This document shows, one piece after another, positions 19,916-26,092 of a stretch of 35,881 nt of DNA. Origin of the DNA: Nitratidesulfovibrio oxamicus. Its GTDB lineage: Bacteria > Desulfobacterota > Desulfovibrionia > Desulfovibrionales > Desulfovibrionaceae. Position 1 is the first letter of the stretch. Every line of letters begins with the position of its first letter. The notes beneath the pieces are model-generated. The model ran no database searches, was not told the DNA's origin, and saw only the letters and a program-made list of their open reading frames with translations. The stretch spans positions 1 to 35,881 of the forward strand of contig NZ_VRYY01000551.1 of NCBI RefSeq assembly GCF_015731765.1. The letters run 5' to 3'. Both the position numbers and the translations under genes were made by a program.

Positions 19916-21118
19916 GTGCTGTACAGAACCATGCCCAAGAACAGTGACACGCTGTCCGCGTTGGGCTTCGGCTGCATGCGCCTGCCCATGCTGGACGGCA
20001 GGGTGGACGAGGCCCGGGCCATCGCGCAGATCCGTAGCGCCATCGACGGCGGGGTCAACTACATGGACACGGCGTGGCCGTACCACCACGGAGAAAGCGA
20101 GATCGTGCTCGGCAAGGCCCTGCGAGACGGCTACCGCGAGAAGGTGAAAGTGGCCACCAAGCTGCCCTCGTGGCTGGTGAAGAACCGCGCCGACATGGAT
20201 CGCTACCTGAACGCGCAACTGGAGCGCCTTGGCGTCGATAGCATCGACTACTATCTGGTGCACGCGCTGGACGGTACCTTGTGGGACACCGTGCACGGCC
20301 TGGGTGTGCTGGAATTTCTGGAAAAGGCCAAGGCCGACGGGCGCATCGTCAATGCCGGGTTTTCATTCCACGGGCTGGCGGAAGACTTCAGGCGCATCAT
20401 CGACGCCTACCCCTGGGTGTTCTGCCAGATCCAGTACAACTACCTGGACGAAACCTATCAGGCGGGCACCGAAGGGCTGCGCTACGCGGCGGGCAAGGAC
20501 ATCGGGGTGATCATCATGGAGCCGTTGCGCGGCGGCAACCTGGGGCTGGTCACCGCGCCGCCCGCCGTGCAGGCCATCTGGGACGAATCGCCCGTTCGGC
20601 GCACCCCGGTGGAATGGGCGCTGCGCTGGATCTGGAACCACCCGGAAGTGACCGTGGTGCTGTCCGGCATGAACGAGGAAGCGCACATCGCCGAAAACCT
20701 GGCCATCGCGGGTTCCGCCGAGGCCGGGTCCATGACCCCGCAGGAACTGGAACTGGTGGCCCGCGCCAACGCCAGGTATCGCGAACTGATGAAGGTGCGC
20801 TGCACCGGCTGCGGCTACTGCATGCCGTGCCCCATGAACGTTTCCATTCCCATGTGCTTCGAGACGTACAACAAGATGCACATGTTCGGAAACATTCTGG
20901 AAGGCAAGTTCCTGTACGCCCTGCGCATGAGTGGCGAGATCGGCGGCGAAGGCCCCGGTTACGCCTCGCAGTGTGTGGCTTGTGGTCAGTGCATGGAAAA
21001 TTGTCCGCAGCACATCGCCATTCCGGACGTGCTGGCCGAACTGGCCGCCGAACTGGAAGGGGCGGACTTTGCCCAGTTGCAGGAGGCGGGGCGGCAGTTA
21101 TTGCGCCGCACCGCGTAG
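19916..21118 (+). CDS. Aldo/keto reductase fused to a C-terminal 2[4Fe-4S] ferredoxin domain
   Basis: 400 residues. Residues 10-280 form the aldo/keto reductase barrel. 'ALGFGCMRLPM' opens it, 'NYMDTAWPYHHGESE' gives the catalytic Asp and Tyr, 'KVATKLP' the Lys and 'YYLVHAL' the His, so the tetrad is intact. A C-terminal domain has two cluster motifs (Cys296, 299, 302, 305 and Cys353, 356, 359, 363), each followed by Pro. This links the barrel to ferredoxin-type electron transfer, as in a family common in anaerobes. It probably reduces or oxidises a carbonyl compound using electrons other than, or as well as, NAD(P)H; the substrate is unknown. The start is GTG 19916 with AAGGAG 6 nt upstream; an ATG five codons later is the alternative. 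Divergent control by the AraC-type regulator is likely. Confidence 0.88.
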   Translation: MLYRTMPKNSDTLSALGFGCMRLPMLDGRVDEARAIAQIRSAIDGGVNYMDTAWPYHHGESEIVLGKALRDGYREKVKVATKLPSWLVKNRADMDRYLNAQLERLGVDSIDYYLVHALDGTLWDTVHGLGVLEFLEKAKADGRIVNAGFSFHGLAEDFRRIIDAYPWVFCQIQYNYLDETYQAGTEGLRYAAGKDIGVIIMEPLRGGNLGLVTAPPAVQAIWDESPVRRTPVEWALRWIWNHPEVTVVLSGMNEEAHIAENLAIAGSAEAGSMTPQELELVARANARYRELMKVRCTGCGYCMPCPMNVSIPMCFETYNKMHMFGNILEGKFLYALRMSGEIGGEGPGYASQCVACGQCMENCPQHIAIPDVLAELAAELEGADFAQLQEAGRQLLRRTA

Positions 21119-21123
21119 GGCAT

Positions 21124-21371
21124 TCCAAATTGTCTTTTTGCTCGCTGGCTGACCGACCCGAAGGGCGCGAAGCGTGCCCGTTAGGCGAGCGTGCGAGTTT
21201 TACGGGCATCGAGCGCAGAGCGGTCAAGCTTCGCCTGCCATGGCGGTCAAATACGATAAGAGTACGCGTTGCGGTCCTCATCCGTAATGCTCGAAGACTC
21301 GCATAACGGTTGCGGCATTCCCCTATGGCAGGCTTGTTTTTCTCGCCAGCGAACAAAAATCCTAAGTTGGA
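21124..21371. repeat. Intergenic element bounded by imperfect 26-27-bp inverted repeats
   Basis: The left arm (21124-21149, starting TCCAAATT and ending TCGCTGGC) and the reverse complement of the right arm (21345-21371, starting TCCAACTT and ending TCGCTGGC) agree at 22 of 27 aligned positions. The interior of about 195 bp has no credible gene. It contains the conserved hairpin at 21282-21309. The element fills most of the 436-bp gap between the reductase stop (21118) and larC (21555). A further GC hairpin (GGCCGGGG at 21393-21400 with CCCCGGCC at 21412-21419) follows. No transposase is present, so it could be a MITE-like remnant or a large structured terminator region. Confidence 0.6.
21265..21313 (+). 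repeat. Conserved intergenic hairpin element, copy A
   Basis: A 49-nt segment matching copy B (minus strand of 23970-24018) at 39 of 49 positions. Its core (21282-21309) folds as CCGT-A-ATGC, the loop TCGAAGACTC, then GCAT-A-ACGG. Compared with copy B, the inner stem differs at two base pairs, and both pairs change on both sides so pairing is kept. It lies about 145 nt downstream of the reductase gene in the same direction. Confidence 0.65.
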
Positions 21372-23169: not shown

Positions 23170-23925
23170 ATGGACAGGACAGACGCCCTGCGGGACCTTT
23201 TGGAAGGCATTCGAGCGGGCACCATCGATGTGGACAAGGGCATGTCGCAGCTGCGCGACCTGCCGTACCTTGAAATGGGACACACCCGCTTCGACATGCA
23301 CCGCAAGCTGCGCAACGGTTTTCCGGAAGTGGTTTACGGTGCGGGCAAGACGCCCGAACAGGTGGCGGAGATTTTCACCCGGCTGCGCGGCCTCAGCCAT
23401 GTGCTGGCCACCCGCGTCTCGCCGGAAATGGCGGAGCACGTGCTGGCCTCCTGCCCGGAGGCCACCTACAACCCCCTTGGCCGCACCCTGACCATGCTGC
23501 ACGGCGAACTGACCTTCAAGCCCGGCGAGATCGGCATCATCACCGCTGGCACCTCGGATCTGCCCGTGGCCGAAGAGGCCCGCGTGACCTGCGAGATGCT
23601 GGGCAGCAGGGCGTGGGTCATCTCCGACGTGGGCGTGGCGGGCGTGCATCGCCTGTTCGACCGGCTGGACGAACTGCGCAAGGCCCGCGTGCTCATCGTG
23701 GTGGCGGGCATGGAAGGCGCGCTCACCAGCGTGGTGGGCGGCCTTGTGTCGCAGCCGCTCATCGCCGTTCCCACATCCGTGGGGTACGGGGCCAACTTCG
23801 CCGGGCTGTCCGCGCTGCTTGGCATGCTCACTTCGTGCGCCAGCGGCGTTACCGTGGTCAACATCGACAACGGGTTCGGCGCGGCCTGCGCCGCGTGTCG
23901 CATCAACAACCTGTTTGCGGAGTAG
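23170..23925 (+). CDS. larB: LarB, carboxylase/hydrolase of nickel-pincer cofactor synthesis
   Basis: About 251 residues. LarB carboxylates nicotinic acid adenine dinucleotide and cleaves the phosphoanhydride, giving the precursor that LarE then thiolates. The C-terminal half is PurE-like: 'IGIITAGTSDLPVAEEA', 'GVAGVHRLFDRLDEL', 'VVAGMEGALTSVVGGL', 'PLIAVPTSVGYGANF' and 'VVNIDNGFGAACAA' are the family blocks. The N-terminal part has 'DLPYLEMGHTRFDMHR'. ATG 23170 gives the usual length; an upstream ATG at 23122 is in frame but lacks a clear ribosome site, and the site before 23170 is also weak. It probably shares a transcript with larC. It converges on nadB, with about 280 bp of repeat-filled DNA between. 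Confidence 0.9.
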   Translation: MDRTDALRDLLEGIRAGTIDVDKGMSQLRDLPYLEMGHTRFDMHRKLRNGFPEVVYGAGKTPEQVAEIFTRLRGLSHVLATRVSPEMAEHVLASCPEATYNPLGRTLTMLHGELTFKPGEIGIITAGTSDLPVAEEARVTCEMLGSRAWVISDVGVAGVHRLFDRLDELRKARVLIVVAGMEGALTSVVGGLVSQPLIAVPTSVGYGANFAGLSALLGMLTSCASGVTVVNIDNGFGAACAACRINNLFAE

Positions 23926-23969
23926 GCGAGGGGGAGAAGCTTTTTGTAAGCCTCCGGCGGGCAGGGACG

Positions 23970-24018
23970 GCAGCCGTTACACGCGTCTTCGAGTGTTACG
24001 GATGGCGATCGCAGCGCG
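23970..24018 (-). repeat. Conserved intergenic hairpin element, copy B
   Basis: Minus-strand copy of the element at 21265-21313 (39 of 49 positions identical). The core hairpin is 23974-24001, read on the minus strand as CCGT-A-ACAC, the loop TCGAAGACGC, then GTGT-A-ACGG. The loop differs from copy A at one position. It lies downstream of nadB in nadB's direction, as copy A lies downstream of the reductase gene. Confidence 0.65.
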
Positions 24019-24042
24019 CTGTCTCCCCCTGCACTCCTTTTC

Positions 24043-24080
24043 AACGCGAAGAACCGCCCAAAGGGCGGTTCTTCGCGTTT
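24043..24080 (+). terminator. Long perfect hairpin, likely terminator of the lar genes
   Basis: A 17-bp perfect stem starting AACGCGAAGAACC, with an AAA loop at 24060-24062, followed by a short T-run (the final GTT runs into TTG). It lies 117 nt after the larB stop. The stem is strong but the T-tract is short, so it may act on both strands or serve as a transcript-end stabiliser. Confidence 0.65.
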
Positions 24081-24155
24081 GCACTTGATAGCGGATTGCC
24101 GCCGATGAGGACGCAGTTCCGTTAGGTGATGGGAAAACAGTTACCCAGTACGGGG

Positions 24156-24180
24156 GGGCAGGGGGCATCGCCCCCTGCCC
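24156..24180 (-). terminator. GC hairpin downstream of nadB
   Basis: GGGCAGGGGGC pairs perfectly with GCCCCCTGCCC around a 3-nt loop, 27-51 nt past the nadB stop on the minus strand. No T-run follows the stem on that strand, although a run of six T's precedes it. It may therefore slow or stabilise transcripts instead of terminating them in the classical way. Confidence 0.4.
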
Positions 24181-24206
24181 GCCGGAGGCGTACAAAAAAC
24201 CGCTCC

Positions 24207-25799
24207 CTAATCTACCCGGTAATGACACCCCAGGCTCTGCTTGTTCCGCAGCGCGGCCATGGTCACCATGTACGAAGTCTGGCAGCCGTGGAACAGGTCC
24301 ACGAGGGGCTTGGAGAGCGGGGTTCGCTTGTAGAAGTCGTGCAGGTGGCGCGACAGGTCGCGCAGGTCTTCGAAGGCGCGTTGCAGGCGGCTGCGGGTGC
24401 GGGTGATGCCCACGTAGTTCCACATGGTGTGGCGGATGGTGGCCCAGTCCTGCGCGATGAGGGCCGGGTCGTCGTTGCGTTCGTCGCCGGATGACTGCCA
24501 GTCGGGGATGGAGTCGCGCAGGCGCTTGCCAAGGCCACGCTGGGCACCGGAGCGTTTGGCGATGTCCTCTGCGGCGGTGCGGCCCCATAGCAGGGCTTCC
24601 AGCAGCGATGTGGACGCCAGGCGGTTGGCCCCGTGCACGCCGGTGCAACTGCATTCGCCCACGCTGTACAGCCGTTCCAGGGTGGTGCGGCCCGTCAGGT
24701 CGGTAAGGATGCCGCCGCAGAAGTAGTGTGCGGCGGGCACCACGGGAATCAGGTCGCGCCGGATGTCGATGCCCAGTTCCATGCACCGGGCGAAGATGGT
24801 GGGGAAGCGCTCGGACGGGTCCTGCTCCATGTGGCGGGCGTCCAGGTACACGCATTCCTCGCCGTTGCGCAGCATTTCCTCCACGATGGACCGGGCCACG
24901 ATGTCGCGCGGGGCAAGGTCGGCGCGGGGGTCGTAGCGTTCCATGAAATGCTCGCCGCTGCCGTTCACCAGCCGACCGCCCTCTCCGCGCATGGCCTCCG
25001 TGACCAGGAACCTGCGCGAACTGCGATGCAGCAGGGCGGTGGGGTGGAACTGCACGTACTCCAGGTTTTCGGTGCGTACGAAGGCGCGGCTGGCCATGGC
25101 CACGCCGGAGCCGATGGAGGTCGGGCTGTTGGTGGTGTGCAGGTACACCTGCCCGATGCCGCCGGTGGCCAGCACCGTGACGTCGGCGAGGATGGTTTCC
25201 ACCCGGCGCAACTGCTCGTTGAAGACGTAGGCCCCCACGCATTGGTTGTTGAGCTGGTAGCGGAATTCGTTGTTGCGGGCGTGGTGGTGGCTGGTCAGCA
25301 GGTCGACGGCAGTGCGTTCCGACAGCACGCGGATGTTGGGGGCGTCGTTCACAGCCGCCATCAGCCCGTCCATGATGGCCCGTCCGGTGTAGTCGGCGCA
25401 GTGCAGGATGCGGTGCGCCCCGTGGCCGCCTTCCATGGTCAGGTCCCATTCGCATTCGGGGGTGCGCCCTTTGGCAAAGGGGATGTGCAGCCGGTCCACA
25501 AGGATGTCCTGCACGGCCTTTGGGCCGCTGCGCGCGATGTGGCGCACCGCGCGCAGGTGGTTGTGGCGGTGCCCGGCGATGAGGATGTCGCTTTCCAGTT
25601 GGCGGGGGTCGCCGTCGCCCGCGCGGAACACGATGCCGCCCTGGGCCAGGGCGGAATTGCCGCTGTCCAGTTGCTGACCGCTGTTGATGAGCGTCACTTC
25701 GATGCCCTGGTCGGCCAGGGTGAGCGCGGCAGTGCACCCGGCGATGCCCGAGCCGATGACCAGTACCGGAGTGTGCAGGCGGTAGGAGGAATTGTTCAT
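24207..25799 (-). CDS. nadB: L-aspartate oxidase NadB
   Basis: 530 residues, normal length. This FAD enzyme oxidises L-aspartate to iminoaspartate, the first step of de novo NAD synthesis; under anaerobic conditions fumarate can serve as acceptor. The FAD motif 'VLVIGSGIAGCTAALTLA' is at residues 12-29, and 'SGNSALAQGGIVF' follows. Catalytic-region blocks 'QFHPTALLH', 'EAMRGEGGRLVN' and 'PRDIVARSI' match the succinate dehydrogenase/NadB family. 'AAHYFCGGILTDLTGRT' and 'ASTSLLEALLWGR' complete the capping and FAD domains. The C-terminal helical domain carries 'MWNYVGITRT'. ATG 25799 follows AAGGGA; the frame is open further upstream without homology. It follows nadA after an unusually long 293-bp spacer. 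Confidence 0.95.
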   Translation of the reverse strand: MNNSSYRLHTPVLVIGSGIAGCTAALTLADQGIEVTLINSGQQLDSGNSALAQGGIVFRAGDGDPRQLESDILIAGHRHNHLRAVRHIARSGPKAVQDILVDRLHIPFAKGRTPECEWDLTMEGGHGAHRILHCADYTGRAIMDGLMAAVNDAPNIRVLSERTAVDLLTSHHHARNNEFRYQLNNQCVGAYVFNEQLRRVETILADVTVLATGGIGQVYLHTTNSPTSIGSGVAMASRAFVRTENLEYVQFHPTALLHRSSRRFLVTEAMRGEGGRLVNGSGEHFMERYDPRADLAPRDIVARSIVEEMLRNGEECVYLDARHMEQDPSERFPTIFARCMELGIDIRRDLIPVVPAAHYFCGGILTDLTGRTTLERLYSVGECSCTGVHGANRLASTSLLEALLWGRTAAEDIAKRSGAQRGLGKRLRDSIPDWQSSGDERNDDPALIAQDWATIRHTMWNYVGITRTRSRLQRAFEDLRDLSRHLHDFYKRTPLSKPLVDLFHGCQTSYMVTMAALRNKQSLGCHYRVD

Positions 25800-26092
25800 G
25801 GCGGGTCCCTTGCGAAGTGGCGGCGTGGGGGATGTGGTGCGGTGTCCGTGCGCCGGGCCTTGCACCTGCCGGGGCACTTCCGGCGGCGAAAGGGGCGGCT
25901 GGCGCGGGCGGGGAAAAATCGTTTCGGGTCTGGGCCAAATCAACCAGAACCAAAGCGGCTTGGTCCATATCTGCCAGCCAGGCCAGCCAGGCCAGCCAGG
26001 TTGGACAGGCCGGACGCAGGATGCTTGTCGGCCCGCGCGGCGCCCGTATATCGGCGGGCATCGCGCGGGCCGCTGTTTCTTCCTACGCCTGC
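25800..26092 (-). other. Non-coding spacer between nadA and nadB
   Basis: 293 bp without a recognisable gene; the nadB frame stays open through it but codes for low-complexity, non-homologous sequence. It contains three perfect 9-bp tandem units (25973-25999). No hairpin with a T-run and no confident promoter were found, so whether nadB shares the nadC-nadA transcript is unresolved. Confidence 0.5.
25973..25999. repeat. Three perfect tandem 9-bp units between nadA and nadB
   Basis: GCCAGCCAG occurs three times head to tail, in non-coding DNA. The 9-bp period is the same as in the coding repeats at 6771-6824 and 12202-12246. Confidence 0.85.

Follow-up and report, generated by a model that had tools for sequence, protein, structure and literature searches.

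Among the closest described systems, REP/BIME sequences are short imperfect palindromes that lie outside genes in many copies and assemble into composite arrays, and REPs carry a GTRG head and are associated with a Y1 (RAYT) transposase (available excerpt of PMC2817692). Insertion sequences that enter REPs are known, for example IS1397 and IS621, which have palindromic extragenic targets (available excerpt of PMC1525189), and mobile-looking hairpins, comprising hairpin-forming and double-hairpin elements, are known from intergenic regions of mitochondria (available excerpt of PMC2800124). MITEs are small, non-autonomous, dispersed and palindromic, and intrinsic terminators are GC-rich hairpins behind stop codons. 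Fungal mitochondrial hairpin elements insert into one another. The 52-nt hairpin analysed here, module B, has features in common with the REP, IS1397/IS621, mitochondrial and MITE systems, and the gap in which it lies has GC-rich hairpins behind stop codons as intrinsic terminators do; searches of the available open-access literature returned no description of these repeats.

The window, a 35,881-nt stretch of the Nitratidesulfovibrio oxamicus genome (contig NZ_VRYY01000551.1), contains the convergent genes larB and nadB, adjoined by larC and nadA, and the structured gap between them (Table 1). The original prediction described this gap as built entirely of nested inverted repeats. Its 26-bp arms (23941–23966 and 24173–24198, 25/26 identical) were recovered beyond chance, with the match stretching to 31/35 over 23932–23966 and 24173–24207, and so were the 17-bp perfect hairpin (24043–24059 and 24063–24079) and the GGGGGGCAGGGGGC (GGGCAGGGGGC) hairpin (24153–24166 and 24170–24183, 93%). 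The top inverted-repeat score of the segment was 22, against a maximum of 11 in 200 dinucleotide shuffles, and its RNA-fold z-scores were −9.3 and −9.0 on the plus and minus strands, respectively. The word "entirely" was too strong, because 24080–24148 holds no inverted-repeat arm at a minimum length of 12; the repeats themselves are real, and what that reading missed was the most unusual part of the gap, the module, as a separate unit. Within 24080–24148, where R1, the model used to find modules, has no match, GATGAGGACGCAG and CCGTTAGGTGA look like pieces of a decayed module.

Table 1. Features of the larB/nadB gap, its neighbouring genes and the nearby composite element (window coordinates)
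Feature	Position	Strand	Basis
Larger composite "C" element with two B modules	21129–21370	.	R1 53.4 and 69.5 bits; boundaries set by eye
larB (AIR-carboxylase-like domain), convergent neighbour	23170–23925	+	PF00731, E 3.1e-15; ORF list
Left part of larB-side A: T-run, GCCTCCGGCGGGC, 5' arm GGGCAGGG	23932–23966	+	31/35 match to nadB-side copy
Module B (hairpin, 52 nt): conserved T.T mismatch, tandem G.A pairs, 3' mini-hairpin GCAGCGC	23967–24018	+	R1 match 23966–24021
3' arm of larB-side A hairpin (CTGTC TCCCCC TGCACTCC)	24019–24037	+	Alignment to uninterrupted arm TCCCCCTGCACCCC of relatives
Shared middle hairpin, terminator-like in both directions	24043–24079	.	17-bp perfect stem; no canonical U-tract in window
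Uninterrupted A behind nadB	24149–24207	−	Dispersed repeat; there in all seven genomes with the gap read
nadB (FAD_binding_2), convergent neighbour; start codon provisional	24207–25823	−	PF00890, E 2.1e-79; adjoins NadA

The two 26-bp arms belong to a pair of facing copies of one gene-end repeat, A, of which they are the first parts. Repeat A is a dispersed 3'-end repeat consisting of a T-run, GCCTCCGGCGGGC and then a G-rich hairpin; its convergent copies behind larB and nadB each read away from the stop codon of their own gene, directly downstream of it, and the terminator-like hairpin lies between them. The arm is not unique in the genome, as the nadB-side copy has 48 own-genome matches at E ≤ 1, a figure that includes the query itself and other places in the window and of which 40 candidates were scored. 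The related genome G007 carries 24 occurrences of the A motif GCCTCCGGCGG in 1.2 Mb, 22 of them outside called genes. Twelve of these 22 lie at most 150 nt downstream of a same-sense stop codon, 10 do so in neither sense, and none (0/22) lies within 150 nt of an opposite-sense stop only.

The gap was compared across eight congeneric genomes, in which Desulfovibrio sp. A2 is the same as G002 (flanks 100% identical) and was counted once. It is not conserved base by base among these relatives: in seven of them its length is 294, 296, 294, 222, 720, 127 and 217 nt, and in the eighth, G003, the larB and nadB flanks lie ∼2.1 kb apart. This inter-flank DNA of G003 (C2, about 1630938–1633035) includes a partial second copy of the nadB end, and the 720-nt gap of G007 (L148) contains extra DNA in which a short open frame seems to separate the A hairpin from the middle one. 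A single element bounded by the 26-bp arms was rejected: the larB-side A is missing in G001 and present elsewhere, and the two A copies therefore vary independently. A mobile non-coding element, one of the options raised in the original prediction, is probably present, as the 52-nt module in the larB-side hairpin and not as a unit bounded by the arms. Plain conserved terminators were likewise rejected, with the gap varying among genomes and the terminator scan negative. Unlike intrinsic terminators, the gap has no canonical U-tract within 23880–24240, and the T-run of A precedes its hairpin. The middle hairpin is still a hairpin in G001, G004 and G007 despite changes in both arms, and in G002 its orthologue is followed by TTTTT. 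The layout is compatible with a two-sided transcription barrier, and the gap may halt transcription from both sides.

Module B interrupts the larB-side A hairpin, and its copy in the gap matches R1 at 68.5 bits (E 2.5e-12). The DNA fold of this copy reproduces the modelled pairing, including the GCAGCGC mini-hairpin, with a z-score of −2.8. In Rfam no hit reached the gathering score: the best ones for 23800–24350 of the window fell far short of it, and a search with eleven loci gave MIR810 and MIR530, each on L033 and each under that score. The mismatched form CCGTTA..TTACGG occurs 40 times in 1.2 Mb of G007, with one occurrence then dropped as a false match, and the perfect palindrome CCGTTA..TAACGG is absent from this 1.2 Mb (0 occurrences). 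Alignment A2 combines the 39 exact CCGTTA..TTACGG copies from G007 with the window copy; its CCGTTA and TTACGG columns are invariant because the copies were chosen by exact match to them. Most A2 copies start with RC-GGCAG.

Pairing of the module is conserved. In A2, 92.9% of the cells of the named structure are paired compared with 83.4% in shuffles, 71 cells are changed on both sides compared with 23.5 ± 3.3 in shuffles and 1 to 21 in slid registers, and the covariation score is 0.296 compared with 0.132 ± 0.010 in shuffles; on the opposing side, the number of pairs with double changes, nine, is reached by 30 of 500 shuffles. The stem beside the foot takes the forms CCTTA/TAAGG, CCTCA/TGAGG, CCCTA/TAGGG, CTTTA/TAAAG and CTTCA/TGAAG, together with CGGCA/TGGCG, which has a G.G mismatch, and elsewhere in the family the foot stem is formed by different complementary arms, CTGTA/TACAG and CTATA/TATAG among them. 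Pairs of the G.U type outnumber A.C by 36 to 6 on the module strand, with 13 of the 36 G.U cells contributed by one pair of one subtype, and this excess suggests that the module strand is the strand that folds, as DNA or as RNA. Compared with a two-hairpin unit, B is a putatively mobile main hairpin with a 2-bp 3' mini-hairpin, and it is unlike the mitochondrial hairpin elements in being bacterial and in its larger, covarying consensus (available excerpt of PMC2800124).

The module is dispersed. In its own genome B has 43 matches at E ≤ 1, self-matches included and 40 candidates scored, and R1 finds three modules in the window. Two of these lie in opposite orientation, at 21170–21225 (+) and 21262–21317 (−), in the composite C element, which sits between a gene ending near 21118 and larC. 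In G007, the first 1.2 Mb contains 63 modules by R1 and another 1.2 Mb adds 54, which gives 117 in 2.4 Mb (56% of this genome). Matches to R1 occur in 66 of 149 family genomes and in 22 of 44 genera; when 16 genomes were searched again all matched (16/16), with 1 to 127 copies each, and of 120 genomes drawn across the order 36 match, all those listed belonging to the same family. Four stretches of viral-collection contigs (L244–L247) also contain the exact module pattern.

Orthologous sites are filled in some congeners and empty in others. At larB/nadB the module is present in G000, G005 and G006 (3/8), and the same A hairpin stands without it in G002, G004 and G007 (3/8); the larB-side A hairpin is missing in G001, and the state of G003 was not read because of the distance between its flanks. 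The junction here is not letter-perfect, since the 5' arm of the filled hairpin has two to three fewer G than the arm of G002, which is empty. At two other loci the junctions are exact. At the L056 T hairpin G002 has CCTTTT-TC-AAAAGG, and the G000 counterpart is CCTTTT-[module]-TC-AAAAGG, with no letters lost and none duplicated. Among the seven genomes compared, G005 being unreadable at this site, G000 and G001 have the module here, and the hairpin is empty in G002, G003, G004, G006 and G007; a second G000 module lies slightly upstream, where G002 and G004 have none. At L013 the same GAGT^ junction carries two modules in G000, one in G001 (97.5% flank identity between the two) and none in G007; the carrier element is wholly missing in G002, G003, G005 and G006, and G004 gave no orthologous flank. 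The L056 T hairpin and L013 lack a target-site duplication, in which B differs from MITEs. The reverse distribution also occurs: L004 is an A hairpin without B in the window's own genome and its G007 counterpart contains B.

These differences could in principle have arisen by loss, with the modules being ancestral parts of the gene-end repeats that were removed by precise deletion, through slippage across the hairpin, and the empty sites being secondary. Hairpins are deletion hot spots, and the flank trees leave the direction of change unsettled: their support is weak, the filled larB genomes are not grouped, and the direction of change consequently rests on counts. In the L056 tree, however, the two filled genomes pair (support 0.81) and the five others are empty, and the same module is found within A, T and C host hairpins that are unrelated to one another. 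The occurrence of one module in hairpins of unrelated sequence requires spread and not loss alone. We regard precise deletion as improbable, and gain rather than loss probably lies behind most of the site differences.

The host hairpins of B are unlike in sequence, comprising A hairpins, T hairpins, whose stems are particular to each locus and reach 25 bp, and points that recur in the larger C repeat. At 32 of 37 sites, omission of the solitary module leaves 10 or more pairs bridging the junction; in the shifted controls the figure is 132 of 296 (p 1e-5, Mann-Whitney). A stricter test, in which the stem starts at the junction with a score of at least 8, is passed by five of the 16 solitary modules (controls 4.1%) and two of the 47 clustered ones (controls 6.0%), so that insertion at the exact hairpin centre is clear for T-type hosts only. 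The sites are not independent, because many C-repeat sites are one position that has been copied. The outer-stem comparison, whose random set contains N runs and whose mismatched set contains shared families, serves the reading of stems only. At one orthologous locus (L315, L317, L318, L319 and L320) the T hairpin retains a long stem while its two arms vary from genome to genome, as though they changed in concert.

Nesting extends to the module itself. In G137, five long composites enclose one module in the loop of a second; this composite (five loci, L291–L295) is roughly 500 nt long and has inverted ends CAGGGCAGACGCATCTAA. A near-identical composite is common to nine loci in G091, and L285 of G069 is a tandem array of composite units with modules in alternating orientation. 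Spread without a dedicated enzyme, via template switching at hairpins during replication-fork passage, would account for junctions at hairpins and for nested or tandem growth, and 71 of the 117 G007 modules lie on the lagging strand and 46 on the leading strand. This strand bias, which movement as single-stranded DNA would be expected to produce, is weak (24 of 37 solitary modules lagging and 13 leading, p 0.10) and is confounded by gene orientation, and the precise ends RC..GCARMGC, common to copies in different hosts, are not expected from random switching. Spread by template switching with no dedicated enzyme is considered unlikely.

The placement of the modules relative to genes bears on whether B serves the host as RNA. 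The first 63 modules of G007 form 36 intergenic clusters, between 24 tandem, 11 convergent and one divergent gene pair, and none of the 36 overlaps a called gene, the gene caller being home-made and validated on larB/nadB only. A gene 3' end lies at most 400 nt from 35 of the 36 clusters, at a median of 54 nt. The flanks of L168 (G005) look coding, and this locus may be an exception to intergenic placement. Placement behind stop codons, together with the conserved pairing, T.T mismatch and tandem G.A pairs and the G.U excess on the module strand, would suit a selected host RNA motif at mRNA 3' ends that binds a protein or affects RNA stability and was spread through recombination among the repeats. 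Yet when each module is referred to the gene whose stop codon lies nearest, 20 modules are sense and 41 antisense (61 modules), so that no fixed module strand is present in the mRNA, and the G.U excess draws over a third of its cells (13/36) from the single pair noted above. A host RNA motif is accordingly a doubtful explanation. Given the mixed orientation relative to genes, the fold more likely persists because it serves the spread of the module itself than because it serves the mRNA.

A conventional REP element moved by a Y1 (RAYT) transposase was entertained as the leading idea and rejected. B is extragenic, of high copy number (117 in 2.4 Mb) and an imperfect palindrome, as REPs are, its pairing is imperfect, and it forms composite arrays. 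In contrast to REP/BIME sequences, it has no GTAG/GTRG head at its 5' foot in A2, shows no association with Y1 across the family and sits inside other hairpins (head and arrays as in the available excerpt of PMC2817692). The Y1 family PF01797 has no match in six of the eight congeners, including G007, which is in one contig and 99% complete, and is represented by fragments in the other two, G003 and G005. Across the 149 family genomes Y1 is found in 51 and the module in 66, with both in 20 compared with 22.6 expected (Fisher p 0.39). A RAYT-driven REP is therefore highly improbable. B also differs from IS1397 and IS621 in being 52 nt long and in having no gene (available excerpt of PMC1525189), and from MITEs in having no known parent transposase; with PF01797 as the family sought, no mobilising enzyme was found.

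Taken together, we consider it likely that the gap is a gene-end region, made of two convergent A copies and a terminator-like hairpin, in which the larB-side hairpin has been colonised by the mobile hairpin B. An A copy directly downstream of each stop codon would thereby flank the shared terminator-like hairpin, and B, a separate structured unit of 52 nt, would have been inserted into the larB-side A hairpin. B would be a non-autonomous mobile hairpin whose targets are hairpins, often at or beside the loop, with the folded single strand being what a putative enzyme recognises. As B is itself a hairpin within larger palindromic repeats, its repeated insertion would give rise to nested, growing structures.

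The data point to B as a mobile hairpin of a type not yet described, one that lodges within other hairpins. It is quite possible, although we stop short of calling it probable, that B is the founding member of a class of mobile elements without genes in the Desulfovibrionaceae. An enzyme would recognise the folded single strand of such an element and insert it at the tips of hairpins, the loops of other such elements among them, and gene-end hairpins would grow in the manner of Russian dolls. With no Y1 match in most congeners, a new mobiliser is called for, and the series of filled and empty sites in close relatives makes the mechanism testable. If this reading is true, gene-end hairpins would themselves be the landing sites of a mobile structured element, and the origin of complex nested palindromes between bacterial genes would be explained.
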